In this document: piece after piece, positions 19,725 to 53,754 of the stretch
How the letters are laid out: each line of letters begins with the position of its first letter
Position numbering within the stretch: position 1 is the first letter of the stretch
Source: Sphingosinicella soli
GTDB lineage: Bacteria > Pseudomonadota > Alphaproteobacteria > Sphingomonadales > Sphingomonadaceae
Direction of reading: 5' to 3'
Assembly (NCBI RefSeq): GCF_014199685.1
Contig: NZ_JACHNZ010000003.1
Location: 1-64,000 of the forward strand
Length of the DNA: 64,000 nucleotides
Position numbers and translations under genes: made by a program
Notes under the pieces: generated by a model
The model's input: the letters and a program-made list of their open reading frames with translations, nothing else
Told to the model about the DNA's origin: nothing
Database searches by the model: none

Positions 19725-19739
19725 ACAGGGAGAGTTCCG

Positions 19740-36475: not shown

Positions 36476-37762
36476 TCACGCCGGCCCGCGCAATTCGACA
36501 AGCGCCGCACGCGCCGCCGCTTCGTTGATGGACTTGCGATCAATGATCCTTCGCGCGACTTCAGCCACCTCGTCGCCGACAGCACCCGCCGCGAACGCGA
36601 CATTCTGGGCATGAAGCGACATGTGCCCCCGCTGGATACCCTCGGTCACCAGGGCTTTCATCGCCCCGAAATTCTGCGCCAACCCCACGGCCGCAATGAT
36701 CCGCGCCAGTTCTCCCGCCGTTTGAACCTGCAAAATGGCAAGCAGCGCGCGCGCCGTCGGATGGATTTTTACAGCACCGCCCACCAAGCCGACAGCGAGA
36801 GGCAATTCGATGGCGCCGGCCAGGTCGCCGCCGGATGTAACCTCCCATTGGGTCAGGCTGCGATAGCGTCCGGTGCGCGCGGCAAAGGCGTGCGCACCCG
36901 ATTCCACGGCGCGCGTATCATTGCCCGTGGCAAGGACGACAGCGGAAATGCCGTTCATGATGCCCTTGTTGTGCGTTGCTGCGCGATAGGGGTCGTTATC
37001 GGCAAATTTATAGGCGGCGATCATCGCATCGCGGATCTCAGCACCCCCGATGGCTTCGCATGTCCAGGTCGCCCGCGCACGCACGACCCGTCGATCGGCG
37101 AGGTTAGACAGGATACGCAGCAGCGTCCGCCCGCCGGTCCACGCCGCGATATCAGGCGCAAGCCGTTCTGCCATCGAATTGACCGCATTGGCACCCATCG
37201 CGTCGTGCGTATCGATTACGATGTGCGTGATGACCATGCAGCCCGAATCCGTACCGATGAGACGGACATCGAGATCGCGGAAGCCTCCGCCCAGGCTGAC
37301 GAGAATGGGATCGCAGGCGTTGCAGATGCGTTCGATTTCCGCCCGGCGTTCCAGAATCAGAAAACGCGCGCGGACGGGATCCGGTATATCGAGCAACTGG
37401 ATCTGCGCGATCATTTCGGTTCCCGACATCGATGTCGTGAAGCCGCCCGATTCATAACATTGGCGCGCCGAATTGCCGACAGCGGCGATGACCGATGATT
37501 CTTCTGTGGCCATCGGTACAAGGACATCGCGCTCATCGACCCGCATGTTCGTCGCGATGCCGACCGGAACGGCGATGGTGGTGACCATGTTTTCGATCAT
37601 ATGGTCTGCCAGATGCGTATCGATATTGGATGGCCGGGCAAGCTGGCGCCGATGCTCGTCTTCAAGGTCTGCAAAGCCGGCGACCAGGTCGATGCGTTCC
37701 TCGACACCGAGTTTGTGAAAGCCTGATATCCGGGATGTCCTTCGGGTCGCGTCGTTTGTCAC
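36476..37762 (-). CDS. mvaA: Class II (soluble) hydroxymethylglutaryl-CoA reductase
   Basis: A 428-residue soluble HMG-CoA reductase without membrane domain. Catalytic residues are all visible: a Glu of PMATEESS (87 or 88), Lys266 in THNKGIMNG, Asp282 in ATGNDTRAVESG and His380 in RGHMSLHAQN. These numbers are almost the same as in the Pseudomonas mevalonii enzyme, which works in the oxidative, mevalonate-degrading direction with NAD. AVPVGIATNMRVD is another signature. The start is GTG at 37762. It is divergent from the MocR regulator gene. Most alphaproteobacteria use the MEP route for isoprenoids, so a catabolic role (mevalonyl-CoA to HMG-CoA) is favoured. No HMG-CoA lyase is in the window. 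Confidence 0.93.
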   Translation of the reverse strand: MTNDATRRTSRISGFHKLGVEERIDLVAGFADLEDEHRRQLARPSNIDTHLADHMIENMVTTIAVPVGIATNMRVDERDVLVPMATEESSVIAAVGNSARQCYESGGFTTSMSGTEMIAQIQLLDIPDPVRARFLILERRAEIERICNACDPILVSLGGGFRDLDVRLIGTDSGCMVITHIVIDTHDAMGANAVNSMAERLAPDIAAWTGGRTLLRILSNLADRRVVRARATWTCEAIGGAEIRDAMIAAYKFADNDPYRAATHNKGIMNGISAVVLATGNDTRAVESGAHAFAARTGRYRSLTQWEVTSGGDLAGAIELPLAVGLVGGAVKIHPTARALLAILQVQTAGELARIIAAVGLAQNFGAMKALVTEGIQRGHMSLHAQNVAFAAGAVGDEVAEVARRIIDRKSINEAAARAALVELRGPA

Positions 37763-37983
37763 CGCTGCTCTTTCGCTTACTGTTGTACGGCGGCACCAGA
37801 CGCGTCAATGCCGCAAAATAACTTCGACAATCCGCACGGTGTCCCGATTTATCGATAGCGATGTCAGCGGACATGATGCAGGTACAATTCAGGACAATAT
37901 GATAGGAACGTAGCGAACGCCGGGAACAGAGCATCACGCCATCGCCACCCCTCAAGATTGATTTCGTCGTCAACAGCATCCTG
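37763..37983. promoter_or_regulatory. Divergent control region of mvaA and the MocR regulator
   Basis: The 221 bases between the two genes contain an imperfect direct repeat, AGGTACAATTC (37880-37890) and AGGACAATAT (37891-37900). MocR-type regulators such as GabR and PdxR bind direct repeats, so this is a candidate operator. An in-frame TAG at 37903-37905 limits how far the MocR gene can extend upstream. Confidence 0.5.
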
Positions 37984-39306
37984 ATGCAACTGCGTGCGGG
38001 CACGCTGCGGCCCGGGCAGCGCCTGCCATCGATACGAGACGAAGCACAGCGCCTCGGCATCGGAAAAAATACCGTGGTCGAGGCATATCTTCGCCTGGTC
38101 GGGCAAGGCATTTTGCAGGCGAAACCGGGATCCGGTTATTATGTTGTCCGAACCCCTCCGGCTGCAACGCAGGAACACAAGATACCGCTGGTCGCTGCGA
38201 CCGACCGGGTTTCGCTACTTGCCGAGCAGCTTGACCGCCGTTTGCCGATCCGTCCCGGCGATGGACGCCCACCTACCGAGTGGCTCGAAACCTCCGAGCT
38301 TCGTCGCTATCTCTCCTATCAAAGATTTCAGGAAGCAGATTCCTACAATTCGAGCTGGGGCTACGCGCCGCTTCGCGAACGACTGTGCGGCGCTTTGGCG
38401 GAAAGAGGTATCTCATGCCGGGAGAGCCAGCTGTTGATGACCCACGGCGCCAACCATGCGATGGATCTCGTCATCAGAAGATATGTCGCGCCGGGCGACA
38501 ATGTGCTGGTTGACGATCCGGGCTATTATCCCTTGCTTGCCAAGCTGGCACTCGCAGGCGCCAATGCGGTCGGTGTCAATCGAATGCAGGATGGCCCCGA
38601 TGTCGGCGATCTGGAAGCAAAGGCAAAAAAAAGCGGCGCACGACTTTTCTTCACCCAGTCGCTTGCTCACAATCCGACCGGTGGATCGATTACCTTCGGC
38701 ACCGCCTATTCCGTGCTGAGAGCGGCGACGGAGTTCGACCTTCTCGTAATCGAGGACGATCCGTTCGCGGATATTCTGCCTTATACCGCGCCCCGCCTGG
38801 CAGCACTCGATCAACTCGACCGGGTAATCTATATCGGCACGTTCTCGAAAACATTGGCGGGCAGTTTCCGCACCGGCTATATCGCCGCCGCACCGCGACT
38901 GGCGAGCGAACTGAACGAACTGAAGGTCGTCACCACCGTTTCGACATCGGCGCATGACGAACGGCTGATCTTCCAGTTGGTCGAGCACGGCCATTATCTC
39001 AAGCACCTTCGCCGGCTGCGCGCGCGCGCGAGCACGGCCACCACGGCGAGCGTGAAGGCGCTGGAGGCTCTGGGGTTCAGCATCCGTCGCCCTATCGGCG
39101 GCGGCTTTTATCTATGGATCGAACTGCCGGAACATATGGGCGGCGATGATCTGGCCCATGATGCCGCGATGGCCGGCATCTTCATCGCCCCGGCCGCCAA
39201 TTTCTCGACCTCCCGGAATCCGCCCCCCGCCATGCGCGTCAACGTGGCCTACGGCGCGGACCCGAGCTTCATCGGCTGGCTGGGCGATCAGGTCAATCGT
39301 CGCTGA
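37984..39306 (+). CDS. MocR-type regulator (GntR wHTH fused to aminotransferase fold)
   Basis: From the first ATG the protein has 440 residues. The winged helix-turn-helix (TLRPGQRLPSIRDEAQRLG and GKNTVVEAYLRLVGQGIL) leads to a fold-type I aminotransferase domain with PLP lysine near residue 290 in YIGTFSKTLAGSFRTGY. The expected first helix of the GntR domain is not after this ATG but encoded just before it (codons for KIDFVVNSIL), with no ATG, GTG or TTG before the upstream TAG. The real start may be a rare codon such as ATT at 37957 or CTG at 37981. It probably regulates mvaA and the downstream CoA genes in response to PLP or an amine ligand. Its end overlaps the crotonase gene by 14 bases, tail to tail. 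Confidence 0.88.
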   Translation: MQLRAGTLRPGQRLPSIRDEAQRLGIGKNTVVEAYLRLVGQGILQAKPGSGYYVVRTPPAATQEHKIPLVAATDRVSLLAEQLDRRLPIRPGDGRPPTEWLETSELRRYLSYQRFQEADSYNSSWGYAPLRERLCGALAERGISCRESQLLMTHGANHAMDLVIRRYVAPGDNVLVDDPGYYPLLAKLALAGANAVGVNRMQDGPDVGDLEAKAKKSGARLFFTQSLAHNPTGGSITFGTAYSVLRAATEFDLLVIEDDPFADILPYTAPRLAALDQLDRVIYIGTFSKTLAGSFRTGYIAAAPRLASELNELKVVTTVSTSAHDERLIFQLVEHGHYLKHLRRLRARASTATTASVKALEALGFSIRRPIGGGFYLWIELPEHMGGDDLAHDAAMAGIFIAPAANFSTSRNPPPAMRVNVAYGADPSFIGWLGDQVNRR

Positions 39307-40060
39307 TCCGGGCGCGCGGCGAAGCGAAGCGGGCCAAGGATTGTTTGGCGGAATCGCTGGTGAATGTGCGCTGGCCGAGGATCGCTTCGCGCGCGAAGGC
39401 TTCCGCGACGGGAAGGTCATACAGCGTCAGTGCCGCTTCTTTGATGGTCTGGACCGCGACAGGGCTTTTGCTTGCGATCTCGGCGGCAATGGCAGCCGCC
39501 GTCGCTTCAACCTCGCCACTTGCAACCACCTGGTTCAACACGCCTCGCGACAGTAATTCCGCGGCGGTGAAACGCCTGCCCGTCAGCATTAATTCCATCG
39601 CATGCGCATAGGCGATCTGCCGGGTCAGGCGAACCAGCGTGCCGCCTGCAGGTACAAACCCGTGCCCGACCTCGGGAAGCTGGAACACGGCGTCTTCGGC
39701 AGCGATCCTGATATCGGTCGCCAGCAAAATCTCGAATCCTCCGCCCATGCACAGCCCGCGTACCGCAGACACGATGGGCTTGTAGAAGGCGCCGGTCTTG
39801 AGATGGGCCGGATCCCAGGCACTGATATCGAACCGGCCCGAAGCAAGCGCCGGAATGGATTCGGTGAGATCGGCGCCGACACAGAACGCCCGGTCCCCAG
39901 CGCCGGCGAGGACGACAGCGTGAATGCGATCATCGCTGCCGATCTCGGCGAAGGCGCGCCCGAGATCGTCGTACATGGCCAGCGTCAGCGCGTTGAGCTT
40001 TTCCGGCCGCGCAAAGCGAACGGTTGCAACCGCGCCGTCGCGCGTCACCTCGATCGCCAC
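39293..40060 (-). CDS. Enoyl-CoA hydratase/isomerase (crotonase family)
   Basis: A 255-residue crotonase. The oxyanion-hole glycines and first catalytic Glu are in MGGGFEILLATD (Glu110); the second Glu is Glu130 in QLPEVGHGFVP. Both acids are present, so a true hydratase is likely. The GTG start has GGAG within the end of the CaiB gene and the gap is one base, so the two are tightly coupled. With HMG-CoA reductase nearby, one possible reaction is hydration of anhydromevalonyl-CoA (5-hydroxy-3-methylpent-2-enoyl-CoA) to mevalonyl-CoA; ordinary enoyl-CoA substrates are equally allowed by the sequence. Confidence 0.9.
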   Translation of the reverse strand: MAIEVTRDGAVATVRFARPEKLNALTLAMYDDLGRAFAEIGSDDRIHAVVLAGAGDRAFCVGADLTESIPALASGRFDISAWDPAHLKTGAFYKPIVSAVRGLCMGGGFEILLATDIRIAAEDAVFQLPEVGHGFVPAGGTLVRLTRQIAYAHAMELMLTGRRFTAAELLSRGVLNQVVASGEVEATAAAIAAEIASKSPVAVQTIKEAALTLYDLPVAEAFAREAILGQRTFTSDSAKQSLARFASPRARISDD

Positions 40061-40061
40061 C

Positions 40062-41312
40062 TCAAATCACTCCGTCTTCGCGAAGCGCAGCAAGCGCAGC
40101 ATCGTCGAGACCAAGCATGCCCTGAAGCACAGCGGCATTATGTTCACCCAGCGACGGCGCCGGATCGTGCGCCGCAGCCGTCGCACCCGAAAGTTTTATG
40201 GGCAGACCCAGCATGCGGATATCGCGCCCACCCACGGGAACATCAACGATCATGCCCCGCGCCTCGATATGTGGATCCGCGATCACTTCATCGATCGATT
40301 TTATAGCACTGAGCGGCACATCATCCCCTGCCATCGCTTCCAGCTGCGCCTTGGTGTAGCGGCCGAACCACCGTTCGAGCAAAGGGTTAACGATCTTTTC
40401 GCTGACCTCCGGATCGAAGCGTTTCTCCATCGTGTCGATCCGCGGATCAGTCGCCATCCCGGGCTCGCCGAACAGCGCGCAGGTGATCGCCCAGAACTTG
40501 TCCGTATATCCGCCGAAGAACACATAGCCGTCGGCACAGGGAAACTGGCCATAGGGCCGAACAAACGGATGATCGTTGCCGAGGGGACCCGCTATCTCTT
40601 TGTCCACGGTGTAGCGGACAACCGCACTTTCGGTGAGAGAGAGCACGGCATCCTGCTGGGAGATATCGACGACCTGGCCGATACCGGTACGCTCGGCCTC
40701 GCGCAATGCGGCGAGGATACCGATCGCCGCATAAAGCGCCGCCGAAAGATCGCCGATGATCGTGCCGACGCGAACGGGCGGCTGCCCTGGATAGCCGTTC
40801 ATCGACCACAGCCCGCCAGTGGCTTGTCCGCTATTGTCATATCCGGGGCGCCTGGAGTTCGGTCCGGTACGTCCAAATCCGCTGATTCCGGCATAAACCA
40901 GGCGCGGGTTCTCGTGCTTCAGATCGTCGTAACCCAGACCGAACTTGTCCATGACGCCGGGGCGGAAGTTCTCGATCAGAATATCGGCTTTCCGAACCAG
41001 CCGTTTGAAAATCTCTTTCCCGTCTGCGCTTCTCAGGTCGAGCGAAACGCCCAGCTTGTTGCGGTTGTACTGCGCGTAAAAGGCGCTCGTCTGGCTTTCA
41101 CCCTCGTTCACCATGGGCGGGAAGGTCCGCGTGTAGTCCGGGTCCTTGGGGTTTTCGATCTTGATGACCGTCGCGCCCATGTCGGCCAGAATCATCGCAC
41201 AAAAAGGCCCGGCGACAACCCGCGTGACATCCAGAACGACAATGCCCGTGAGCGGCCCCGTGCGCGGCGATGCGGGGCCGGCGGTTTCATTGCCGTCAAC
41301 GTTCAGCGGCAT
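40062..41312 (-). CDS. CaiB/BaiF-family (class III) CoA-transferase
   Basis: A 416-residue class III CoA-transferase. The N-terminal LDVTRVVAGPFCAMILADMG and IKIENPKDPD are typical, as is YNRNKLGVSLDLRSADGKEI. The predicted catalytic Asp is Asp188 in TIIGDLSAALYAAIGIL. It moves CoA from a donor such as succinyl-CoA to a carboxylic acid. It lies one base from the genes on either side, in one transcript with the MHS transporter (upstream) and crotonase (downstream), which suggests it activates the acid that the transporter brings in. Confidence 0.92.
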   Translation of the reverse strand: MPLNVDGNETAGPASPRTGPLTGIVVLDVTRVVAGPFCAMILADMGATVIKIENPKDPDYTRTFPPMVNEGESQTSAFYAQYNRNKLGVSLDLRSADGKEIFKRLVRKADILIENFRPGVMDKFGLGYDDLKHENPRLVYAGISGFGRTGPNSRRPGYDNSGQATGGLWSMNGYPGQPPVRVGTIIGDLSAALYAAIGILAALREAERTGIGQVVDISQQDAVLSLTESAVVRYTVDKEIAGPLGNDHPFVRPYGQFPCADGYVFFGGYTDKFWAITCALFGEPGMATDPRIDTMEKRFDPEVSEKIVNPLLERWFGRYTKAQLEAMAGDDVPLSAIKSIDEVIADPHIEARGMIVDVPVGGRDIRMLGLPIKLSGATAAAHDPAPSLGEHNAAVLQGMLGLDDAALAALREDGVI

Positions 41313-41313
41313 G

Positions 41314-42912
41314 CTATTCGTCCTTCAGAAGGTCGCGCTCACGCAGCAGCAGCATGGTCACAACAAGCGCCATCGCGACAACACCCCAACTGTACCAGAG
41401 CCCCGCGTAGGAGTTCCCGGTTCGGGCCACGATATACTGCTCCACAAACGGCAGCACCCCGCCGAAATATCCTGTACCGAAATGGTACGGAATCGACATC
41501 GAGCTATAGCGTATGCGCGCGGGGAACAATTCGCTCAGCAATGCCGCTACAGGTCCGTAAGTCGCGCCGGACAGCGCCGTGAGCGCCATGATGGCAAGGA
41601 AGATGATCGCAATGTTCCGCGGCGACGGCGTGACTTTTTCGAGCCGGTAGCCCGCCCCTGTCAAAGCCGCGTCGAGTTCGGCTTCGCTACGGCCGGTCAC
41701 GACGCTACCCCCCACCGTCATCTCCACGGCGGGCGCTTGTTGCAGACTGTAGGAAATGCCTCGCTTCGACAGATAATCGATCAGGCGGCCGCACGCTTCG
41801 TCCTGTGTCCCGGCAAACGGATTGAAAGCGCAGTCCGGTCCGGAGACAACGATCGGCGCCTGCTGGGCTGCGCGCGTAAGATGCGGGTTCGCCGCCCAGC
41901 CGATCACCCAGTAGAGCGGAAAGAGCAACAGCAGCGTCAGCGCATAGCCTGTCACGATCAGCCGCTTGCGCCCGATGCGGTCGCTCAGCCAGCCGAACAG
42001 TATGAACCAGCCCACGCCCATCGCCGCAGCCGCGCCGACGATGATCTGCGCCACGCTCTCTTCAACGTGCATCGCTCTCTGCAGAAAGCCGAGCGTCGTG
42101 AACATCGCTGTGAACCAGATCACCGTGAGCCCGGCGGCGATACCGAACAGCGCCAGAAAGAGCCGTCGACCGTTTCCGGGATAGGTGAAACTTTCGCGGA
42201 GCGGATTCTTCGAGGTCTTTCCTGCCGCTTTCATGGCTTGGAACACCGGACTCTCGGAAAGTTTGACGCGCATCCAAAGCGAGATCGCAAGCAGCACGAT
42301 GGAGAGCAGAAACGGTACGCGCCAGCCCCATGCGTTCCATGTCTCCGCGGGCATGCTCCATTTGCAGCCCAGCACGACCACAAGGCTGAGGAAGAAACCC
42401 GCGCCGACGCTCGCCTGAATGAAGCTGGTGAAGAATCCGCGCTTACCGGCGGGCGAATGTTCCGCCACATAGATCGCCGCACCGCCATATTCGCCGCCCA
42501 GCGCCAGGCCCTGAAGAATGCGCAGCAGGATGATGAGCGCGGGCGCAGCCAATCCGATGGCGGCATAAGACGGCACCAAACCCACACCCGCCGTTGCCAC
42601 GCCCATCAGCAGGATGGTGACGATAAACGTGTGCTTGCGCCCGAACCTGTCGCCGAAATAGCCGAACACCACTGCGCCCAGAGGCCGGAAACAGAACCCC
42701 ACGGCGAACCCTGCCCACGCAAGCAGTGTCTGGAGCTGTGCATTGTCGGACGGGAAGAAGACCTGGCCGATAATGCCCGATGCGGCAAGTGTACCGTAGA
42801 TAAAGAAATCGTACCATTCGAACAAGGTGCCGAGCGACGAAGCCGTGATGACGCGGCGAACATCCTTGGCGGCTGGTTTATCCAGGCTCGCTTCTTCAAC
42901 TGACACGATCAT
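41314..42912 (-). CDS. MFS transporter of the metabolite:H+ symporter (MHS) type
   Basis: A 532-residue, 12-helix transporter. Typical MHS blocks are SSLGTLFEWYDFFIYGTLA, GRKHTFIVTILLMGVAT and RILQGLALGGEYGGAA. Between helices 8 and 9 is an unusual extracytoplasmic loop of about 80 residues (from NPHLTRAAQQAP to GYRLEKVTPSPRN) with two Cys. The ATG at 42912 is preferred to a GTG 24 bases earlier. The family imports carboxylates and related polar acids with protons (shikimate, 2-oxoglutarate, citrate), consistent with uptake of the acid activated by the adjacent CoA-transferase. Confidence 0.9.
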   Translation of the reverse strand: MIVSVEEASLDKPAAKDVRRVITASSLGTLFEWYDFFIYGTLAASGIIGQVFFPSDNAQLQTLLAWAGFAVGFCFRPLGAVVFGYFGDRFGRKHTFIVTILLMGVATAGVGLVPSYAAIGLAAPALIILLRILQGLALGGEYGGAAIYVAEHSPAGKRGFFTSFIQASVGAGFFLSLVVVLGCKWSMPAETWNAWGWRVPFLLSIVLLAISLWMRVKLSESPVFQAMKAAGKTSKNPLRESFTYPGNGRRLFLALFGIAAGLTVIWFTAMFTTLGFLQRAMHVEESVAQIIVGAAAAMGVGWFILFGWLSDRIGRKRLIVTGYALTLLLLFPLYWVIGWAANPHLTRAAQQAPIVVSGPDCAFNPFAGTQDEACGRLIDYLSKRGISYSLQQAPAVEMTVGGSVVTGRSEAELDAALTGAGYRLEKVTPSPRNIAIIFLAIMALTALSGATYGPVAALLSELFPARIRYSSMSIPYHFGTGYFGGVLPFVEQYIVARTGNSYAGLWYSWGVVAMALVVTMLLLRERDLLKDE

Positions 42913-42936
42913 CCCCCATTTCCATGTTTCGTCCAC

Positions 42937-44610
42937 TCACGCAGAAGGCGCGGCGAAGCGTTCCTCACCATCCACAAAGGTTCGCAGGACGCCGGTCTTC
43001 AAATATTGATCGGGCGCGACGGTAAGCAAATTTCGGTCGAGCACCGTGATATCGGCGAGGCTACCGGCGGCGATCCGCCCGAGGCGGTCTTCCTGAAACC
43101 CGGCAAACGCCGCAGTGCGCGTATAAGACGTCAGTGTTTCCTCGATCGACACCCGCTGTTCGGGATGCCACCCATTCGGGTTCGCGCCGTCGATCGTGTG
43201 GCGCTGCACAGCGGCATCGATGCCCGTCATCGGATCGAGCGGCGCGACCGGCCAGTCCGATCCGAAGCAGGTCCGGACACCGGCGTCGAGAAGCGATCGG
43301 AACGCATAGGTACGGTTCAGCCGCTCCTCCCCGATCCGGTGCACCGCCCAGCGCCCGTCATCGGCGGCATGGTAGGGTTGCACCGATGCGATCACGTTCT
43401 GCTGCGCCATGCGCGACCAAGCTCCGGGGCTCAGGTGCTGGGCGTGTTCGATCCGGAATCGCCTGTCGCGCTTGCCGTTCCGCCGCTCCGCATCGGCGAA
43501 GATATCGAGCACGACATCGTTCGCCTCATCACCGATGGCGTGGGTGGTGATCGTGAGCCCCGCCGCGTCCGCTGCCGGTATCCATTCGCGCATGTCTTCA
43601 ACGCGCGTGGCCCACACGCCGCGTTGATCCGGCGCATCGAGGTAGGGTTCATGAAAGCGCGCGGTCCGCGCACCGAGCGAACCGTCTGAAACGCATTTGA
43701 GCGCGCCCCAGCGCAGCCAGTCGTCGCCCCGCCCTTCCGCCTTGACCAGCGCGGCCATGCGTTCCCAATCCGCGAGCGGGACAAAGGAATTGAAGCGAAG
43801 GCCCAGCCCCCCTTCGCGCCGCAAACGCCGCGCGACATCCTGAACGGTCCAGTCAATCTCGGTGTTATGGACCTGGCTGACTCCTTTGCTCAAAGCATGG
43901 TCAATGCCCTGGCGGACAAGCTGATTCGTGAGTGCATCGGTCAGCGGCGGGATCACTTCGCCCACGCGGCGCGTGGCGTTGTCCTTCAGCACCCCTGTCG
44001 GCTCGCCTCGCTCGTCACGTTCAATAACCCCGCCGGCGACATCAGGGGTATTCCGGTCGATTCCGGCAAGGCGTAGCGCCGCCGAGTTCAGGAACAGCGA
44101 ATGCAGATCGGTGCGGGGAATGGCGATCGGCGTGTCGCCGGACACCGCATCGACCCATTCCTTGCGTGGCAGCTCGCCGCCCCAGCGCTGCTCATCCCAC
44201 GGCCCGCCCGTCAACCACTGGCCGGCTGGAACGGCGCGAACGGCCGCGCCGATGCGGTCGATGAACTCGGCTTTGGACCGAACATCGAGGAAAACAGGCT
44301 GCGCGAGCGTGATGGAGCCCAGCAGAAAATGCGTGTGGCAATCGATGAAGCCGGGCATCACGAACACGCCGCCGCAATCGATCACACGCGTTCCCGGGCG
44401 GGTTGCAGATCGTACCGCGCTGCTCCCAAGGGCTGCGATCCGGTTCCCCGAAATGCCGACAGCATCCGAGATCACGCCAGGATCGCCGGTCCACACGACT
44501 GCGTTGACAAGCGCAGTGTCCAGTGTGCCGTGCGCCGCGAATGCCGGCCCGCAGAGCGCGGCGGCGGCTCCGGAAGCGATCAGTTGGCGACGCGTGATCT
44601 GATGATTCAT
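42937..44610 (-). CDS. Tat-exported amidohydrolase of the YtcJ type
   Basis: A 557-residue protein. The N-terminus MNHQITRRQLIASGAAAALC is a twin-arginine signal followed by an AFAA cleavage site. The amidohydrolase-3 (YtcJ) barrel has metal-binding FIDCHTHFLLG near residue 80, TTHAIGDEAND and FRIEHAQHLS in the middle and CFGSDWPVAPLDP near the end. YtcJ-like enzymes hydrolyse N-acyl amides and related bonds, but most have no defined substrate. It is upstream of the MHS transporter gene by 24 bases in the same direction. Export to the periplasm suggests it releases an acid from an amide before uptake. Confidence 0.88.
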   Translation of the reverse strand: MNHQITRRQLIASGAAAALCGPAFAAHGTLDTALVNAVVWTGDPGVISDAVGISGNRIAALGSSAVRSATRPGTRVIDCGGVFVMPGFIDCHTHFLLGSITLAQPVFLDVRSKAEFIDRIGAAVRAVPAGQWLTGGPWDEQRWGGELPRKEWVDAVSGDTPIAIPRTDLHSLFLNSAALRLAGIDRNTPDVAGGVIERDERGEPTGVLKDNATRRVGEVIPPLTDALTNQLVRQGIDHALSKGVSQVHNTEIDWTVQDVARRLRREGGLGLRFNSFVPLADWERMAALVKAEGRGDDWLRWGALKCVSDGSLGARTARFHEPYLDAPDQRGVWATRVEDMREWIPAADAAGLTITTHAIGDEANDVVLDIFADAERRNGKRDRRFRIEHAQHLSPGAWSRMAQQNVIASVQPYHAADDGRWAVHRIGEERLNRTYAFRSLLDAGVRTCFGSDWPVAPLDPMTGIDAAVQRHTIDGANPNGWHPEQRVSIEETLTSYTRTAAFAGFQEDRLGRIAAGSLADITVLDRNLLTVAPDQYLKTGVLRTFVDGEERFAAPSA

Positions 44611-44700
44611 ATTGTCCTGTCTCCCAAGTCCGTCTTCAGCCACTCGCCCGTTTCGATCAAACGCCGAGGCGCTTTACATCGCACCTTGCAGCGCGAGTCG

Positions 44701-46290
44701 TCATCGTGTTTCTCCAGCGCGTTCCAGGCAAGGCGCGCGACCGGGCAATTCTTGCGCATAAGCACGAAGCGAAGCGGTATCGAGCCTCTGCAGTTCCGGA
44801 TAGTTTTCAAGCGTCGACTTCAGCCCTGCGGGCCGAAAACCACGAACATACTGGTTGAGGAAAGCGAGTGTCGTATCGTTGATGATGGCGAGCGCCCGTT
44901 CACCGTCAAGGCTGGTAAAATGCTTCGACTTGTATGGCCCGCGCGCGCCCAGCACGAAATCGGTCAGCCCCATGTGCAAAATGCCGCGCGCGCGAAGCCG
45001 AAGTATGTCCTCCCTATCGCCGACGCAGTGCCAGTTCTCCCATGCATAGTCCGTGGGATTGAATGTCCGGTCACTGCGCTGTTTATCGCTGAACGGCTGA
45101 TCCGTAAGTATCAGAAGGAGCGGAGCGCGCAGCGCGCGGTCGAATTGCGCGCCGTCAAAATTCTCTCCGTCGAGATCGACCGCCGCAACGCAGTCGGGAT
45201 CGGCGTCGCAGGCGCTCGCAGCCGTCGATCCGCCGAACGACATACCCGCATACGCAATTCTGGAAAAATCTGCGACCGCCATGATACCCTGAACTGCGGG
45301 CGGTGGACGATCGCGCAATGTCCGGCTCGCAAACAGCACATCGTCCCGCCAGACAGTCAGACTTCGGCCCAGCCGGTGTCCTGAGACCGCGGCCTTGTAG
45401 GACGGCAACGCCGCTATGCGCTTTTCGTGGCTCTCGCCTCCCATAAATGCCGACGTTGCCGCGTCCCATTTCCGGTCGGCCGCCGGATCGCCAACCCCTT
45501 CCGGGCCGGTATGAAGCGCCGACGTTATCAATGTCCCGTCCTGCAACCGCACATCGGCGCTGTCGCGCGGGTGCGCAACACTGACGGCGATATAACCATG
45601 GCTCGCCAGCCGTTCCATCAGCGCCGAATTCTGGGCACGGAACGACCAATAGCCGTGGCTGAAAACGACGATGGGAAACTTATGCCCCTGCGCGACATCG
45701 GCATCTTCGATGGCATGCGTACCCGTCGAATGCAGCGAAAGGAACCGATATGCGGGAAAGCCCCACAAGGTCGCCACCGATACCGCCTCGTCAAGCGCCT
45801 CGCGCCGCGTGAGATAGGGGCGTATCTTTCCCTTCGCATCGGCCGACGCCGGATACCATATGGTTAGCGGAATATCCCTTTGCACATCGGGGCCGAGGTA
45901 CGACACGCCCCGGCGGGACGTATCGCGCAGATCGATATTCTGAATACCGACACGAAACGGCCCATCAGGCGCTGGCAAATCGAATATCGGGAAGAAAACA
46001 TACGGCACGACTGCGACAAGCGTGAGCCCGGCGGTGGAGGCCGCCACAAGGCGTCTCCGTTCGGCGTGCCATACCATCCATGCGCCGAGGCCCGTCGAAA
46101 CTGCGGAAACCACAAGCGCAGGAACGATCTGCCAGCGTAGCGACCAGGCCGCGATCGCCGCGACGACAAGTGCCGTGAACGACCCGCACAGGAAGGCACG
46201 TTTGCTGCGCGGGTCATGCCAACACGAAAGCAGGACCGCCGAGAGAAACAACAGCGCAAAGACGATCATGTCCAGTAACGGCACGCCCAC
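44701..46290 (-). CDS. Membrane-anchored alpha/beta hydrolase (PAF-acetylhydrolase-like)
   Basis: A 529-residue protein with about four hydrophobic helices in the first 100 residues, then an alpha/beta hydrolase domain. The nucleophile is Ser351 in AGMSFGGSTAA, the oxyanion region is VVFSHGYWSFRAQNS, and the likely catalytic His is in ILHMGLTDF. The overall pattern resembles platelet-activating-factor acetylhydrolase and dienelactone-hydrolase-like esterases. The start is GTG at 46290 with GAGG upstream; an ATG at 46269 is the alternative. The four-helix anchor would place the catalytic domain on one side of the inner membrane, probably periplasmic. It acts on an ester; substrate unknown. Confidence 0.82.
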   Translation of the reverse strand: MGVPLLDMIVFALLFLSAVLLSCWHDPRSKRAFLCGSFTALVVAAIAAWSLRWQIVPALVVSAVSTGLGAWMVWHAERRRLVAASTAGLTLVAVVPYVFFPIFDLPAPDGPFRVGIQNIDLRDTSRRGVSYLGPDVQRDIPLTIWYPASADAKGKIRPYLTRREALDEAVSVATLWGFPAYRFLSLHSTGTHAIEDADVAQGHKFPIVVFSHGYWSFRAQNSALMERLASHGYIAVSVAHPRDSADVRLQDGTLITSALHTGPEGVGDPAADRKWDAATSAFMGGESHEKRIAALPSYKAAVSGHRLGRSLTVWRDDVLFASRTLRDRPPPAVQGIMAVADFSRIAYAGMSFGGSTAASACDADPDCVAAVDLDGENFDGAQFDRALRAPLLLILTDQPFSDKQRSDRTFNPTDYAWENWHCVGDREDILRLRARGILHMGLTDFVLGARGPYKSKHFTSLDGERALAIINDTTLAFLNQYVRGFRPAGLKSTLENYPELQRLDTASLRAYAQELPGRAPCLERAGETR

Positions 46291-46365: not shown

Positions 46366-49300
46366 TTAAAATACCAGGTCAAGTCCAAGCCGAATGTAGC
46401 GTGGCCGCTGATAGCCGATCGGCGATCCGTATTCGGGCCGCAGGGCATCGCTGTTGTAATCGATCTCGCCGATCTGATCGACGTCGGTCACGCCCTTGAA
46501 GCTGAACAGGTTGAAAACATCGGCACGAAGCGTCGCCTTGCCCATCACCGGCAGATCGATGTCGTACCGGACGGAAACATCGATGTTCTTGACCCAGTCA
46601 CTTTTCAGTCCGGCACCGTCGAGACCCGTACCGCGAGGTTGCAGGCGGCCGAGGCAGTATTGCGACCAGGCACCGTAGAAATACCCGAGGTTGGTGCCGT
46701 CGAACCCGCCGCGGCTGTTGCCGATACAGCCGTAGTGACGCGGCGAGGACAGCGATGCGTTGAACCCGAACAGCAATGCGTCCGTCACCTGATAGGCACC
46801 CCAGACCTTGAACTGGTGGGCGCGGTGGTTCGGCAGTTTACCGTATGCGCCCTCCATCAGGTCGGGTTGATCGAAGTCGCGCGTCAGGCCCGTGCCGTTC
46901 TGGCTGAAGTCGGACTGGACGAAGCCTTCGACGTTGCCGCGGCTTTTCGACCACGTGTAGGAACCGCGCAGCGACCAGACGCCGTCGAAGGCACGTTCGA
47001 AGGTGAACTCCACCGCATCATATTTCCGCACAGCGCTCGGAATGCCGATGTCTTCGGCATTCAGTGTAACTGTTCGCGGCGTCGCTTCGCCGTTGATCGG
47101 ATCGCTGAGCGTGATCTCGATATCCCGGTTCGGATTGGCGACGACATATTGGTGATATCCCGACCAGATATCGTCGCATCCGGCGATGCCTTCCGCGGCG
47201 CAGTATGAGCGTACCGCCGCATCGATCGCGATGTCGTCGGCGACCGCCAGCAGGCGCCGACGCGTATAGGCGACGCCGAACGTCCATTGCTCGTCGAAAC
47301 GGTATGATGCGCCGACGATGATCTCGTCTTCTTCGCTGGCCTTCAGGTTTCGCGAGGCCACCTGGCCGGGGTCGCGGATCGCACCGGTCGCAATGACGTT
47401 GCAATTGGCGCCGCCCACGCCGAAAATCGGCGCCGGGCAGGCTTGGCCTCCGTCCCACCCGGTGATCTGGGTGGTGAGCGTCGGCACGCTGCTGGCACTG
47501 AACGTGCCGTCGGTCTGCCAGTATTCGGTGAAGCTGATCGGAGATCCGAAACTGACGGCGGAAACATTCGACGCCACCGGAAGATAATAGCGGCCATAAT
47601 TGGCATAAAGCTTGATCCGGCCATCCCCCGATACGTCATAGGATGCACCGATGCGCGGGGCCCAGGCATTGTCAAGATCGATGAATTTTACGCCCGCGTT
47701 GCTGGAGTTGGTGAACTGATCGAGCCGAACACCGAGATTGACGGTCAGCCTGGGCGTCACGCTCCATTCGTCCTGGACGTAATACGCCTTGTTCTTGCCC
47801 TCAAATCCGCCGCCGAGGCTGCCGTATCCGACACCTACATAAACCTCGTCCGCCGCGAGACCAGCGGCCACACACTGCGGCGTATCCACACCGCAGACGT
47901 TGAGGTAATAAGCGACACCGCCGGGCGCCGCCGCAAGCCCGTTCGCATCGTAACCATCCGCGCCGGTGGGCACGGAAACCTTCGACAATTTGGTGTTCTC
48001 GGTGTCCATGCCGAAGCGGACATGGTGGTCACCGAGCATCGAGAAATACAGATCGGCGTCGATCCGGTAGAATTCGCGCCGCGTGCTATAGGGAGACTGA
48101 ACGCTGTCGAGCTTCTGGTCACTGAGAACCACGCCGGTCAGCTCGTCCCGCACATAATTGCCGTCGTTGTTGGTGAGAACGTCGAAGCGCTCCTTGGAAA
48201 CGCCGTAGGCACCCGAAATGGTGAACCACTCGGCCAGATTCCCGGTGTAGCGCGCAACATAGCTCGCCCCGCCCGACCGATGGCGCGTCTGGCCGAGTTC
48301 ACCGCCCACCGTGTCCGTCGCCGCATCGAAGGCGTACGTGGTTCTGCGGCGTTCGGTGCCGGTGTCGAAATATGTGAATTCCAGATGATGGTTATCGAGC
48401 GGATAGGCATCGAGCTTGATGCCCCAGATCGGATCATTGTCCCGGTCCACGAAACGCGCGCCCGATTCGATACTGCTGTGGCCGCTCTTGATGTCGCGGA
48501 ACTCGATCAGGCCATACGCGAACAGCCGATCCTTGATAATCGGGCCGCCTACTTCCGCGATCGCGCTGAAATTGTTGTTCGTGTCCTTCCCGTTGCGATC
48601 GCGATAGGTATCCTTGGTTGTAGACCTGAGGCTGTTCGGTTCCCAGTTGAGATGAATGCCCGCCGTCAGGTCGTTCGTGCCGGCCTTCGTCACGGCATTG
48701 ATGATGCCCCCCGTCGCCCGGCCGTATTCGGCAGGATAACCGCCGGTCTTGACCTCGACCGACCGGAAGAATTCGAACGGAACCGGCGCGGAGCCCAGAT
48801 ACGTGTCGAAGTTGGTGATGTTGAGGCCATTGATGTAATAAGCGTTCTCCGCCACCGAAGCACCGCCGAACGACGGAAGGTTGCCGAAGGCCGTATCGCC
48901 GGCCGTGGCGGTGGGCGCGAGCAGCGCCGCATCGGTGAGGCTGCGACCGAGCGGCACGCGGCCGGTCAGCTCCTGAAGGTCGACCGCAATGCCGGTGGTG
49001 GTATTGGAAAAGTCGAGATTGCGCCGTGCGCCCGTCACGACGATTTCGCCGCCCGAACTGACGACAAAGGTGTAATTGGCGGTTGCCGAGGCTGCGATCT
49101 GCATGCCCTCCTCGCTCGTGTCCCCTGCAGCGGACGTGATGGCAACGCTATAGCGGCCCGGCGGAAGCCCACCGAAGCGGAAGCCGCCCGATGAACTGCT
49201 GTTCGCCGTGCGGGAAAACCCTTGGTCTTCCGAGGTCAGCGTGATGTTCGCGCCTGCAACGGGCGCGCCGTCGGCGTCGTTGATCGTTCCTGCAAGAGCG

Positions 49301-49425
49301 CCCGATGTATAATCCTGCGCCATGGCGGGCGCATTGATGCCTGCACTGAATACGATTACCGGCGCTGCATATAGCGCCAGCACGGCCGCCGAACCCGATG
49401 TCAAGAACCGTGTCAATTTCCCCAT
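46366..49425 (-). CDS. Oar-like TonB-dependent receptor with carboxypeptidase-regulatory domain
   Basis: A 1019-residue receptor. The signal peptide ends near residue 36 (APAMAQ). Residues 40-120 form a CarboxypepD_reg-like beta-sandwich (GTINDADGAPVAGANITLTS, FGGLPPGRYSVAI). A TonB box lies in GGEIVVTGARRN, then a plug with VEVKTGGYPAEYGRATGG and a large barrel ending RYIRLGLDLVF. This Oar-type layout is common in receptors for peptides, proteins or large complexes in sphingomonads and Bacteroidetes. The ATG at 49425 follows AGGGGGATTC. It is the first gene of the minus-strand set and lies opposite the IroE-like esterase gene, so both may share a control region. Confidence 0.93.
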   Translation of the reverse strand: MGKLTRFLTSGSAAVLALYAAPVIVFSAGINAPAMAQDYTSGALAGTINDADGAPVAGANITLTSEDQGFSRTANSSSSGGFRFGGLPPGRYSVAITSAAGDTSEEGMQIAASATANYTFVVSSGGEIVVTGARRNLDFSNTTTGIAVDLQELTGRVPLGRSLTDAALLAPTATAGDTAFGNLPSFGGASVAENAYYINGLNITNFDTYLGSAPVPFEFFRSVEVKTGGYPAEYGRATGGIINAVTKAGTNDLTAGIHLNWEPNSLRSTTKDTYRDRNGKDTNNNFSAIAEVGGPIIKDRLFAYGLIEFRDIKSGHSSIESGARFVDRDNDPIWGIKLDAYPLDNHHLEFTYFDTGTERRRTTYAFDAATDTVGGELGQTRHRSGGASYVARYTGNLAEWFTISGAYGVSKERFDVLTNNDGNYVRDELTGVVLSDQKLDSVQSPYSTRREFYRIDADLYFSMLGDHHVRFGMDTENTKLSKVSVPTGADGYDANGLAAAPGGVAYYLNVCGVDTPQCVAAGLAADEVYVGVGYGSLGGGFEGKNKAYYVQDEWSVTPRLTVNLGVRLDQFTNSSNAGVKFIDLDNAWAPRIGASYDVSGDGRIKLYANYGRYYLPVASNVSAVSFGSPISFTEYWQTDGTFSASSVPTLTTQITGWDGGQACPAPIFGVGGANCNVIATGAIRDPGQVASRNLKASEEDEIIVGASYRFDEQWTFGVAYTRRRLLAVADDIAIDAAVRSYCAAEGIAGCDDIWSGYHQYVVANPNRDIEITLSDPINGEATPRTVTLNAEDIGIPSAVRKYDAVEFTFERAFDGVWSLRGSYTWSKSRGNVEGFVQSDFSQNGTGLTRDFDQPDLMEGAYGKLPNHRAHQFKVWGAYQVTDALLFGFNASLSSPRHYGCIGNSRGGFDGTNLGYFYGAWSQYCLGRLQPRGTGLDGAGLKSDWVKNIDVSVRYDIDLPVMGKATLRADVFNLFSFKGVTDVDQIGEIDYNSDALRPEYGSPIGYQRPRYIRLGLDLVF

Positions 49426-49884
49426 GCTACGAATCCCCCTTTTTAAAACCGTGTCGTTCGCCCCGGCCACGTAGCCCGGACGCAGGAATTGGATATTCCC
49501 TTCACCGGGCGGACACTGAAGCCGATGGCTTTTCGCGCTCCGTCCGATGTGCAGGAAAATTTAGTAGAGCATCGACGAACCGACGTTCAGGCATGATTAT
49601 GAGCTTATGTGCAGTTGATGTCCTCGCTTCGAAGCGGGTACAATTTGCAGAATACGCGCCAAAATGGCGTGAAATGCGCTGCCCCATGCAGGAACGATTG
49701 TACCTGATCTGTATCGCGCACGAGCCGCATCATAGGGACAAATCCGCCGAAAACGTCTCTCATGGCGCAGCGCCTTACCTGAAAGCGACCGTGATTACCC
49801 CCCGATCCGCTGGCAAAACGCCGTAGAAAGCGATTCTATGAGGGCGGCAGCTATCGCAATCATGGCTGAACGGAGACTTACGGA
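49426..49884. other. Divergent region between the Oar-type receptor and the esterase
   Basis: These 459 bases should hold promoters for both genes. A plus-strand frame from about 49587 to 49826 (MIMSLCAVDV...) resembles nothing known and has no good Shine-Dalgarno. No regulator site could be matched. Confidence 0.4.
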
Positions 49885-50775
49885 ATGAACATGTCGTGGA
49901 CGAAGCTCGTCGCTGTCACAGCACTTGCTATCGCGATCCCCGCCGTATCGGCAAGTGCAGAGCCGCCCGCGCCACCGCAATCCCCGCCCGGCTATACGAT
50001 GCCCTCGACCCACATGTGGGACATGACGTCCGACACCGGGGAGGTCTACCGGATCTTCGTTTCATTCCCCGGCGAGGGCGAACCGCCCGCTGACGGCTAT
50101 CCCGTGCTCTACGTGCTCGATGGCAACGCGAGCTTCGCGTCCTTTGCCGAAACGCGGCGGTTGCAGGAATTCTACGCGGTCGGAAAATCGATCATCGTCG
50201 GCGTCGGCTATCCGACCGACAAGACATATGATGTCAGACGCCTCAATGACCTGACCCCGCCGCTCCTCGATCCCGCGCCCACACAGTGGCGCGGACTGGC
50301 GAAATACGAAAGCGGCGGCCGCAAGGAATTCCTGGATTTCCTGACCGGAAAATTGCGCACCGAAATCGGCCGGCGCTACAAGACCGATCCCGAACGCCAG
50401 GCCTTGTTCGGTCATTCGCTGGGCGGTCTGTTTGGTCTGTATGCGCTTTATTCGCGGCCCGATGCCTTTCATTCCATTATTGCGGCAAGCCCCTCGATCG
50501 AATGGAATCATCAAGGCGTGCTGAGCGAGGAGCGGGCGTTCACATCGCAGCTTGAAAACGGCAAGATCGGACGGACAAGCCGCCTGATGATTGTTGTGGG
50601 AGATCTCGACGTCGACGACGATCCCGAACCTGCGCGCGCGCTCGCGGATCGGCTCGATCGGTTCTCGGATCGCGGTCTTCGTGTCCGCTTCACGCGCTAC
50701 GAACACGAAGGCCACATGAGCGTACCCGCCCGGTCAGTCACCGATGTCCTGCGGTTCGCGTTCGAGATACGCTGA
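49885..50775 (+). CDS. Periplasmic alpha/beta hydrolase of the IroE/esterase D type
   Basis: A 296-residue protein with a signal peptide (MNMSWTKLVAVTALAIAIPA, cleavage after ASA). The nucleophile is Ser178 in ALFGHSLGGLFGLYAL, the likely His is His277 in YEHEGHMSVP, and an acid is near Asp243. VLYVLDGNASFASF and AASPSIEWN are hallmarks of the family that includes IroE and Fes-like siderophore esterases and fungal TAFC esterases. A GGAGACTTACGGA ribosome site precedes the ATG. It is transcribed away from the Oar-type receptor gene. Hydrolysis of an ester, possibly a siderophore, in the periplasm is the best guess. Confidence 0.85.
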   Translation: MNMSWTKLVAVTALAIAIPAVSASAEPPAPPQSPPGYTMPSTHMWDMTSDTGEVYRIFVSFPGEGEPPADGYPVLYVLDGNASFASFAETRRLQEFYAVGKSIIVGVGYPTDKTYDVRRLNDLTPPLLDPAPTQWRGLAKYESGGRKEFLDFLTGKLRTEIGRRYKTDPERQALFGHSLGGLFGLYALYSRPDAFHSIIAASPSIEWNHQGVLSEERAFTSQLENGKIGRTSRLMIVVGDLDVDDDPEPARALADRLDRFSDRGLRVRFTRYEHEGHMSVPARSVTDVLRFAFEIR

Positions 50776-52177: not shown

Positions 52178-52900
52178 CTACAGCGCCGCCAGATGCCGTG
52201 CGACGATAGCCGCCATTTCCGGCCGCCGCTCCAGACAGCGTGAAACCGGACCCACCACCACGACCGACATGTTCCGGTCGCTCCCCGGCAGCGGCAGGGC
52301 CACGCCGGCCAGATCGGGCGTATATTCGGCGTTGCTCTGGTGCCAGCCGCGCTTGGCGGCATGCTTCAATTCCACCTCCACCGCCTCGGCGCTTGCCGGT
52401 GTCGTCGGCGAATAAAGCGTGAAATCGATCTTCCGATACAGGCGCTCGCGTTCGTCCGCACTCAGTTGCGCGAGAAGCGCACGCCCGGCCGAACTCGCAT
52501 GGATCGGCACCCGGTCGCCGACGCGCGCGAAATAGCGCACCGGCTGACGCGATTCCGCGACATCCACGAAGGTCGCGAAGATCCCCGCAGGTGCCGAGAT
52601 CGCGGTCGTCTCGCCGGTGGCTTCCATCACGTCGCGGGCGAGCCGCTGAAACCGCTCGGGCAGCGGCTCGGCCCGCGTCACCGCTTCGGCGAGCACCAGC
52701 CAGCGCGGGCTGGGATAATAGCTGCCGCGTCCGCGCGGTTCGTAGAGATAGCCCTTGGCGGCGAGCGTGCCCACCAGCTTGAACGTGCTCGATCGCGGCC
52801 AGCCGAGATCCCCGGCGATCTCGGCCGGAGTCGCGGGCTTCAGCCGCTTGGCGAAGTATTCCAGAATTTCCAGCACATTGGCTGCTTGCCGCACGATCAT
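52178..52900 (-). CDS. IclR-family transcriptional regulator
   Basis: A 240-residue regulator. The winged helix-turn-helix is at residues 3-60 (QAANVLEILEYFAKRL, TPAEIAGDLGWPRSSTFKLV) and a GAF-like effector domain follows (YFARVGDRVPIHASSAGRAL). It lies in the middle of the minus-strand set SDR-dehydrogenase-transporter and probably controls it, along with the divergent CoA-transferase at 55316. The start at 52900 coincides with the beginning of family homology. Confidence 0.92.
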   Translation of the reverse strand: MIVRQAANVLEILEYFAKRLKPATPAEIAGDLGWPRSSTFKLVGTLAAKGYLYEPRGRGSYYPSPRWLVLAEAVTRAEPLPERFQRLARDVMEATGETTAISAPAGIFATFVDVAESRQPVRYFARVGDRVPIHASSAGRALLAQLSADERERLYRKIDFTLYSPTTPASAEAVEVELKHAAKRGWHQSNAEYTPDLAGVALPLPGSDRNMSVVVVGPVSRCLERRPEMAAIVARHLAAL

Positions 52901-52979
52901 CTTGGTTTTCGCCTGAAGGATATTGCAGCCTCCCGTATGGCCGAAGCGGCGCGCCCGGAAAAGCCGCAAGCACCTGCGT

Positions 52980-53744: not shown

Positions 53745-53754
53745 GGTCTTGTCC

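Follow-up and report, generated by a model that had tools for sequence, protein, structure and literature searches.

A Sphingosinicella soli locus that may degrade anhydromevalonyl compounds of fungal siderophores through a mevalonate-oxidizing HMG-CoA reductase

We analyzed a stretch of 64,000 nucleotides from Sphingosinicella soli (RefSeq assembly GCF_014199685.1, contig NZ_JACHNZ010000003.1, positions 1 to 64,000), hereafter the window, which holds genes for a degradative 3-hydroxy-3-methylglutaryl-coenzyme A (HMG-CoA) reductase (HMGR), a crotonase-fold enoyl-CoA hydratase and a type III CoA-transferase. It is fairly probable that the locus around these genes encodes proteins for the breakdown of anhydromevalonyl compounds, the most likely of these being fungal hydroxamate siderophores (fusarinines, coprogens) or fragments of them. 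Compared genomes (G), loci (L) and contigs of the S. soli genome (C) are cited by our own handles where they have to be told apart.

Gene content of the locus

The HMGR, crotonase and CoA-transferase genes are intact, lie on the minus strand and occupy the coordinates given in the original prediction, which had linked a soluble degradative HMGR to a CoA-transferase and a hydratase; profile searches bear out the families (TIGR00532, 427.8 bits; PF00378, 185.8 bits; PF02515, 415.1 bits). HMGR and crotonase do not belong to one unbroken operon, as an oppositely oriented gene for a MocR regulator stands between them, 221 bp from HMGR. From the crotonase gene, a minus-strand run extends to 49470: a gap of 1 bp separates crotonase from CoA-transferase, and gaps of 1, 0, 57 and 75 bp precede the genes for the major facilitator superfamily (MFS) carrier, the Amidohydro_3 metallohydrolase, the platelet-activating factor acetylhydrolase (PAF-AH)-like hydrolase and the TonB-dependent receptor (Table 1). 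The MocR gene, the gene run, the divergent esterase, the amidohydrolase, the TonB receptor and a shared regulatory element were all absent from the original prediction; of these, the esterase, amidohydrolase, receptor and element point to a source of the acid.

Gene calls beyond the curated genes are open reading frames (ORFs) picked by hand. The Amidohydro_3 protein probably starts about 11 codons inside its ORF, and its N-terminus reads TRRQLIAS; its motifs are presumably those of the family. The PAF-AH-like hydrolase is kept in G085 and G150, and the TonB receptor is kept in G150, with its start also present in G257.

Table 1. Features of the locus and of a possible second module (positions in the window)
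Feature	Position	Strand	Evidence and remarks
Degradative class II (NAD-type) HMGR	36476..37762	-	TIGR00532, PF00368, PDB 6dio and 1qax
Putative MocR operator, HMGR/MocR intergenic region, core GGTACAAT	37878..37911	+	Kept in S. soli, G085, G150, G257, G584; weaker in G294
MocR/PdxR-like GntR regulator with aminotransferase-like domain, divergent from HMGR	37984..39306	+	PF00392 and PF00155
Crotonase-fold enoyl-CoA hydratase, proposed anhydromevalonyl-CoA hydratase	39293..40060	-	PF00378; E110, E130
Type III (CaiB/BaiF) CoA-transferase	40062..41312	-	PF02515; D188
MFS carrier, metabolite:H+ symporter kind, proposed importer of the released acid	41314..42936	-	TIGR00883, 336 bits, below cut-off 443
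Amidohydro_3 metallohydrolase, twin-arginine-like N-terminus	42937..44643	-	PF07969, 319 bits; motifs HTH, THAIG, EHAQ, SDWP
PAF-acetylhydrolase/chlorophyllase-like serine hydrolase, four N-terminal hydrophobic segments	44701..46290	-	PF03403, 67 bits; GMSFGG
TonB-dependent outer-membrane receptor with carboxypeptidase-regulatory N-terminal domain	46366..49470	-	PF13620, PF25183, PF00593, PF07715
GGTACAAT core between TonB gene and esterase	49637..49644	+	
Second GGTACAAT core, TonB gene/esterase interval	49697..49704	-	
Secreted esterase, EstB/IroE siderophore-esterase family, divergent from TonB gene	49885..50775	+	PDB matches; Ser178, His277
Hydantoinase-A-like protein, possible second module	60066..61691	+	PF05378/PF01968 on longer ORF 59898-61691
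DUF917 / S-Me-THD protein, partner of the hydantoinase-A-like gene, possible second module	61681..62784	+	PF06032, PF20906

Catabolic direction of the reductase

HMGR scores well above the cut-off of the degradative model TIGR00532 (259.95 bits) and matches PDB entries 6dio and 1qax at E<1e-117. It retains the catalytic Glu/Lys/Asp/His motifs (at 87, 265-267, 280-282 and 379-381), and Asp184, within IDTHDAMGAN, aligns to the Asp of 6dio; we take the catalytic residues, and Asp184 with respect to NAD, to have their usual roles. The original prediction regarded a complete mevalonate biosynthesis pathway elsewhere as evidence against it. No match to mevalonate kinase or HMG-CoA synthase was found in the S. 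soli genome (99.5% complete), and the genome has the DXS of the methylerythritol phosphate pathway. The HMG-CoA lyase that the prediction proposed to look for lies on contig C17 (287.6 bits, cut-off 246). Because of this gene complement, HMGR almost certainly works in the catabolic direction, as the predicted mevalonate-degrading type would, with mevalonate oxidation here resting on genome content; a biosynthetic role was dropped. The lyase gene adjoins HMGR in G257, G584, G294, Conexibacter, Brevibacterium and Nesterenkonia, and lies 1.2 kb from it in Streptomyces A108.

The substrate of HMGR is free mevalonate, the C5 alcohol of which is oxidized and receives the CoA, and fungal-type mevalonyl-CoA carries its CoA on C1. 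The last step of the original prediction, from mevalonyl-CoA to HMG-CoA, is chemically wrong on these grounds, and an HMGR acting on mevalonyl-CoA was rejected. Since HMGR uses free mevalonate, CoA must leave mevalonyl-CoA before the HMGR step. The CoA-transferase resolves this problem, because a type III enzyme can hand the CoA of mevalonyl-CoA on to a further molecule of anhydromevalonate, much as CaiB does in its work with CaiD. Passages of one report name oxidative acylation of mevalonate as the reverse HMGR reaction (PMC12292504).

A MocR gene is also found near HMGR at loci that have HMGR only, for example in Acidovorax (L022) and Bradyrhizobium (L025), which suggests that MocR regulates mevalonate catabolism in general. 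At many proteobacterial loci without orthologs of the CoA-transferase and crotonase (L022-L045 and others), the MocR gene near the degradative HMGR is often accompanied by a DctM-like tripartite ATP-independent periplasmic (TRAP) transporter gene.

Linkage of the CoA-transferase and crotonase to HMGR

Orthologs of the crotonase, defined by thresholds of E≤1e-60 (order), 1e-68 (class) and 1e-60 (actinobacterial class sample), are present in 4/396 genomes of the order and 3/385 of the class, with S. soli in both counts, and in 4/394 genomes of the actinobacterial class sample around Streptomyces A108 (centre G1003, counted in). HMGR was found in 5/397 family genomes and in 8/197 genomes of the actinobacterial sample, two of the eight being crotonase-positive. 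Per genome, scoring covered the best 4 to 12 first-look candidates, so that all of these numbers are minimum values.

All seven genomes first found through their crotonase (G584, G454, G821, G912, G1389, G1372 and G1175) also carry HMGR, against a background of 1-4%; the gene is clustered with the crotonase in five, about 24 kb off in G1389 and on another contig in G1175. The linkage of CoA-transferase, crotonase and HMGR is far above chance. HMGR is present without the crotonase in G1006 (Methylobacterium), G1007 (Acidovorax) and G294. Among the genomes checked, the CoA-transferase/crotonase pair needs HMGR, and not vice versa. From this asymmetry, with HMGR present in all seven crotonase-first genomes and HMGR also found without crotonase, we argue that the product of the pair is the substrate of HMGR, which indicates that CoA transfer and hydration would feed HMGR. 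We regard it as likely that the pair supplies mevalonate.

The CoA-transferase-positive set comprises 16 genomes: S. soli, G085, G150, G257, G584, G454, G821, G912, G1389, G1372, G1175, Xanthobacter, Conexibacter, Streptomyces, Brevibacterium and Nesterenkonia. In a tree of 54 HMGR sequences, the 15 from such genomes fall into at least three lineages, with six label changes, five of them forced by well-supported branches. The association recurs in Alphaproteobacteria and Actinomycetota. The HMGRs of G821 and G912 group with those of Rhizobium, and Xanthobacter has the nearest relative of their CoA-transferases (77%). For comparison, the best 80 of 587 confirmed HMGR collection matches were used; a locus counts as HMGR-only if no pair ortholog lies in the flanking DNA, which reaches 10 kb or less to either side, and many such loci are archaeal or cut short. 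In most G genomes, the flanks examined were 15 to 20 kb long. Weak CoA-transferase or crotonase homologs at L023, L025, L036 and L095 (29-39% identity) were not counted as orthologs.

Families and substrates of the pair

D188 of the CoA-transferase is invariant in 16/16 orthologs, and both glutamates of the crotonase (E110 and E130) in 15/15 aligned orthologs, which share the conserved segment ESIPAL...DIS.WD.AH.K. The best solved structure scores 239.5 bits with the CoA-transferase, the fourth nearest is the SUGCT-type 9br6 (succinate-hydroxymethylglutarate CoA-transferase) at 221 bits, and CaiB (1xk6) reaches only 98.6 bits. Of the named models, those for mesaconate and glutarate CoA-transferases give the CoA-transferase its highest scores, which stay below the cut-offs of both. 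The mycobacterial 3r0o, named carnitinyl-CoA dehydratase by its depositors, ranks 8th and 16th among the structural relatives of the crotonase, and the 60 listed include no structure named methylglutaconyl-CoA hydratase (AUH/LiuC). Among the ten module proteins scanned there is no ATP-dependent mevalonyl-CoA ligase; no search for one was made elsewhere in the genome.

In Nesterenkonia, HMGR, lyase and CoA-transferase genes are followed by that of a PF13452 dehydratase-type protein (L097:13512-14333; 31.3 bits, cut-off 22), which has no NCBIfam match, and the genome has no crotonase match at E≤1e-50. This protein appears to be a non-homologous replacement of the crotonase, with the predicted hydration step itself kept. 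The PF13452 class includes, we presume, mesaconyl-C4-CoA hydratases.

These relationships raise the main rival to anhydromevalonate as the substrate, namely that the pair feeds HMG-CoA directly. 3-Methylglutaconate or 3-hydroxy-3-methylglutarate would be activated, 3-methylglutaconyl-CoA would be hydrated to HMG-CoA and passed to the lyase, and HMGR would be a parallel entry for mevalonate. The affinities of the CoA-transferase and the Nesterenkonia replacement fit this scheme. A possible source of 3-methylglutaconate is ferrichrome A, which carries methylglutaconyl groups. Ferrichrome A is, according to passages of PMC10866069, a known carbon source for bacteria. The scheme predicts that the pair should occur with the lyase and without HMGR, which is not so in the seven crotonase-first genomes, and the lack of a structure named methylglutaconyl-CoA hydratase among the 60 listed crotonase relatives is a further point against it. 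Weakened by the dependence of the pair on HMGR, it seems to us unlikely; one pair might handle both anhydromevalonate and 3-methylglutaconate.

A shared regulatory element

Between HMGR and MocR lies a conserved element whose core is GGTACAAT (site at 37881), and two further cores lie between the TonB gene and the esterase. The window thus has three sites against 0.49 expected, and 1 of 100 shuffles reaches three. The core is found again between HMGR and MocR in G150, G085, G257 and G584. G150 has a further pair in its esterase/TonB gene interval, and G085 has one more site, which lies upstream of the amidohydrolase at the 3′ terminus of the PAF-AH ORF (L013:9684). Both G257 and G584 have one upstream of the MFS-CoA-transferase-crotonase genes; another is placed right where the TonB ORF of G584 begins (L104:15508), and another inside the HMG-CoA lyase gene of G257 (L014:7225). 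In each of the five genomes, a second transcription unit belonging to the set carries the core as well. Altogether, 14 sites fall in 64.8 kb of locus DNA from these genomes against 1 in 219.8 kb of other sequence from S. soli and related genomes, the limits between the two having been drawn after the first sites were seen.

We looked for the full 34-bp operator before other operons and did not find it; the core alone recurs. MocR presumably binds the element, and the gene set is apparently co-regulated. These data bear on a further explanation, in which the locus serves plain mevalonate catabolism as in Pseudomonas mevalonii and the CoA-transferase/crotonase operon is an unrelated neighbor acting on another acyl-CoA. 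HMGR and MocR do occur without orthologs of the pair in G294 and at many proteobacterial loci. Against such a coincidence stand the shared element, the joining of the pair to different HMGR lineages and the presence of HMGR in every crotonase-first genome, and we consider it very improbable.

Esterases, amidohydrolases and receptors

The esterase at 49885 matches BES (2qm0, 8.5e-42), the esterase for triacetylfusarinine C (TAFC; 6gud, 3.2e-31), a ferric enterobactin esterase (6gi0) and IroE (2gzr). Its nearest solved structures include EstB of Aspergillus fumigatus, the TAFC esterase, and EstB of A. nidulans. At E≤1e-20, the PDB gives nine distinct sequences, each of them a BES, an EstB/IroE-like or a ferric enterobactin esterase, and the motifs around Ser178 and His277 are kept. 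Matches at E≤1e-45 were found in 3/199 family genomes (S. soli, G085 and G150), all HMGR-positive, in a sample for which membership of G257, G294 and G584 is not shown; the esterase is about as rare as HMGR. In G584, an esterase homolog stands in a run with a TonB receptor, Amidohydro_3 and Amidohydro_1 genes, beside lyase-HMGR, MocR and crotonase-CoA-transferase-MFS. In G454, one follows an Amidohydro_1 homolog downstream of CoA-transferase-crotonase. The actinobacterium G1372 has an amidohydrolase adjoining a FecB/FecCD-type importer and a Fes-like esterase, with HMGR-CoA-transferase-crotonase about 4 kb on.

At a threshold of 80 bits, an Amidohydro_3 gene lies within 10 kb of HMGR in 9/16 CoA-transferase-positive clusters and in none of the 70 HMGR-only loci of at least 5 kb, which come from the best 80 of 587 confirmed matches and include many archaeal or short loci. 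Hydantoinase-type genes (HyuAB, or HyuA with DUF917) accompany 9/16 clusters, some more than 10 kb from HMGR, and one or the other type is present in 12/16, the contig of G257 being just 8.9 kb long. The gene for a hydantoinase-A-like protein with its DUF917 partner, found in the window, also occurs at the G085, G150, Nesterenkonia, G1389 and G1175 loci. As Amidohydro_3 and hydantoinase types are C-N bond hydrolase families, the precursor is probably an amide, a hydroxamate or a lactam.

Beyond the window end (C3:64016-71592) lie genes for an amidase, a second EstB-like esterase, another Amidohydro_3 protein, a TonB siderophore receptor and a PepSY_TM protein. The receptor (C3:68095-70104) scores 279 bits with TIGR01783 (cut-off 223.5), and its top models are FhuA and FoxA, both below their own cut-offs. 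This FhuA/FoxA-like receptor and PepSY_TM gene are 4 to 7.6 kb past the window end and about 30 kb from HMGR. In G085, a receptor 93% identical to the S. soli copy and a PepSY_TM gene are directly beside HMGR. A catalase and a flavin adenine dinucleotide (FAD) oxidoreductase beside HMGR were set aside as pathway members, since PepSY_TM takes that place in G085.

According to passages of PMC3709128, SidI and SidH use mevalonate to make the anhydromevalonyl groups of fusarinine and coprogen. Passages of PMC10866069 and PMC11800396 describe hydrolysis of fusarinines by EstB-type esterases, and growth of bacteria on hydroxamate siderophores in which the hydroxamates stay intact. As the source of the acid, fungal anhydromevalonyl hydroxamates are the best single reading, with a chance of even or slightly better. 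The same chemistry could instead serve a non-siderophore source, such as anhydromevalonolactone or some other fungal compound that holds 5-hydroxy-3-methylpent-2-enoate in an ester or amide bond. Anhydromevalonolactone occurs in excerpts of the literature on an Aspergillus oryzae host and a Streptomyces strain, 5-hydroxy-3-methylpent-2-enoic acid in excerpts of that on macrocyclic trichothecenes, and clusters of the Xanthobacter type show no amidohydrolase or outer-membrane receptor. The family of the 49885 esterase, the C-N bond hydrolase genes at 12/16 clusters and the siderophore uptake genes adjoining some of them lead us to consider a non-siderophore source unlikely.

Proposed pathway

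We propose that the siderophore would enter the periplasm by TonB-dependent uptake (step 1), where the EstB-like esterase, with the PAF-AH-like hydrolase, would cut esters of the anhydromevalonyl hydroxyl (step 2) and the exported Amidohydro_3 enzyme would cut the N-acyl (hydroxamate) bond, releasing anhydromevalonate (5-hydroxy-3-methylpent-2-enoate; step 3). The MFS carrier would import this acid (step 4). Step 5 would be a cycle like that of CaiB and CaiD, in which the type III CoA-transferase loads CoA onto anhydromevalonate (5a), the crotonase hydrates anhydromevalonyl-CoA to mevalonyl-CoA (5b) and the CoA-transferase passes the CoA to the next anhydromevalonate, freeing mevalonate (5c). 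HMGR would then convert mevalonate, CoA and 2 NAD+ to HMG-CoA (step 6), and the HMG-CoA lyase encoded on C17 would yield acetoacetate and acetyl-CoA (step 7). MocR would control the set through the GGTACAAT sites. We infer all substrates, steps 1 to 5 and the stereochemistry; families, catalytic motifs, conserved linkage, dependence on HMGR among the genomes checked and the shared element are read from the sequences. That these parts make up one dedicated, horizontally recurring siderophore-eating pathway, with esterase and amidohydrolases, a CaiB/CaiD-like pair, HMGR and lyase in a single MocR regulon, has in our view about an even chance.

Several observations weigh against this proposal. 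The closeness of the CoA-transferase to mesaconate, glutarate and SUGCT types makes a dicarboxylate such as 3-methylglutaconate a possible substrate. The crotonase shows no special kinship to SidH: the SidH structure 7oeq is 22nd among its structural relatives in a single-sequence search and 42nd in a profile search, and orthology to SidH was not borne out. CoA-transferase-positive HMGRs are clustered on the tree (0 of 500 label shuffles reach so low a number of changes), which means that inheritance accounts for part of the association. The GGTACAAT core is lacking in L012, which holds the FhuA-like receptor of G085. Esterases of the EstB/IroE family act on several siderophores, including enterobactin. 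The operon's own TonB receptor falls outside the siderophore type (TIGR01783, 37 bits against a cut-off of 223.5), and that of G584 is also under the cut-off (144.5). Recognized siderophore-uptake genes are near just 3/16 CoA-transferase-positive clusters (S. soli, G085 and G1372). Siderophore importer genes in every cluster were sought and not found, FecCD being present in one CoA-transferase-positive cluster (L121) and also at the HMGR-only locus L025. Xanthobacter, G821 and G912 have CoA-transferase-crotonase-HMGR with an ATP-binding cassette (ABC) binding protein, and no amidohydrolase was seen nearby. The Streptomyces, Brevibacterium and Conexibacter clusters carry HyuAB, for which the proposed pathway does not account.

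HyuA-HyuB, of the ATP-dependent lactamase/carboxylase family, adjoins CoA-transferase-crotonase in actinobacteria (L092:2893-7285, L099:72-4390 and L070:3661-7918). The literature searched gave no direct support for diketopiperazine cleavage by HyuAB.

Comparison with known systems

The mevalonate catabolism of P. mevalonii likewise runs a class II NAD-type HMGR oxidatively, followed by HMG-CoA lyase. There, mvaA reportedly encodes HMGR and mvaB the lyase, and the regulator is said to be the LysR-type MvaR. The locus described here differs in having MocR as its regulator and in adding a CoA-transferase, hydratase, amidohydrolase, esterase and TonB receptor upstream. The CaiB/CaiD carnitine pair resembles ours in combining a type III CoA-transferase, with catalytic Asp, and an adjacent crotonase; its net effect, as in our proposal, is to hydrate a free enoic acid while CoA cycles between product and substrate. 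By scores, neither protein is orthologous: the L-carnitine CoA-transferase model gives 134 bits (cut-off 413) and the crotonobetainyl-CoA hydratase model 128 bits (cut-off 500).

With the fungal SidI/SidH branch, the proposed route would share the intermediates mevalonate, mevalonyl-CoA and anhydromevalonyl-CoA and a crotonase-fold (de)hydratase, and it would run in the opposite direction. The original prediction had called the route the reverse of SidI/SidH, which stands for the reaction and fails for the proteins, as the hydratase is not specially near SidH and a CoA-transferase takes the place of the ATP-dependent SidI ligase. The anhydromevalonate route it outlined gains from the finding that CoA-transferase and hydratase go with HMGR in several phyla, and loses its final HMGR step as written.

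The 49885 esterase belongs to the same family as the siderophore esterases EstB (TAFC), BES, IroE and PfeE, with the Ser and His motifs and a signal peptide as for a periplasmic enzyme; it differs from them in being part of a catabolic gene set, and its substrate is putative. Siderophores serve as carbon sources, as proposed here, for Pseudomonas FC1 (ferrichrome A) and for Mesorhizobium and Azospirillum (desferrioxamine B). Passages of PMC10866069 describe peptide or amide cleavage in these cases, with the hydroxamates left intact, whereas we propose catabolism of the acyl group via HMG-CoA. We did not meet bacterial anhydromevalonate catabolism, or a degradative HMGR tied to siderophores, in the open-licence literature searched, a search that was not exhaustive. 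The enzyme families are known, and their combination is a new variant of mevalonate catabolism.

To our knowledge, the natural source of mevalonate for bacteria with a degradative HMGR is unclear. The locus suggests the acyl groups of fungal siderophores as one, which, if true, would explain what many "mevalonate-degrading" HMGRs of bacteria do in nature. It would tie bacterial carbon metabolism to fungal competition for iron in soils, rhizospheres and perhaps cheese rinds. It would also put names to now-generic CoA-transferase and hydratase families and provide enzymes for anhydromevalonate, fusarinines and coprogens. Brevibacterium aurantiacum carries the set (L099); excerpts of a cheese transcriptome paper on Brevibacterium do not mention mevalonate.

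Neighboring genes

The region from 59898 to 64000, continued by C3:64000-71592, holds genes for HyuA-like and DUF917 proteins, an NCS1 permease, an amidase, the second EstB-like esterase, Amidohydro_3, the FhuA/FoxA-like receptor and PepSY_TM. This is apparently a second siderophore-related module, partly kept in G085 and G150. Elsewhere in the window, two class III aminotransferase genes flank an aldehyde dehydrogenase gene (16891-21053), and a Peptidase S58 gene lies beside an acyl-CoA dehydrogenase gene (25586-27001). Genes for an IclR regulator, a short-chain dehydrogenase/reductase, an aldehyde dehydrogenase and a second type III CoA-transferase (52178-56512) perhaps form another acid-degrading cluster.

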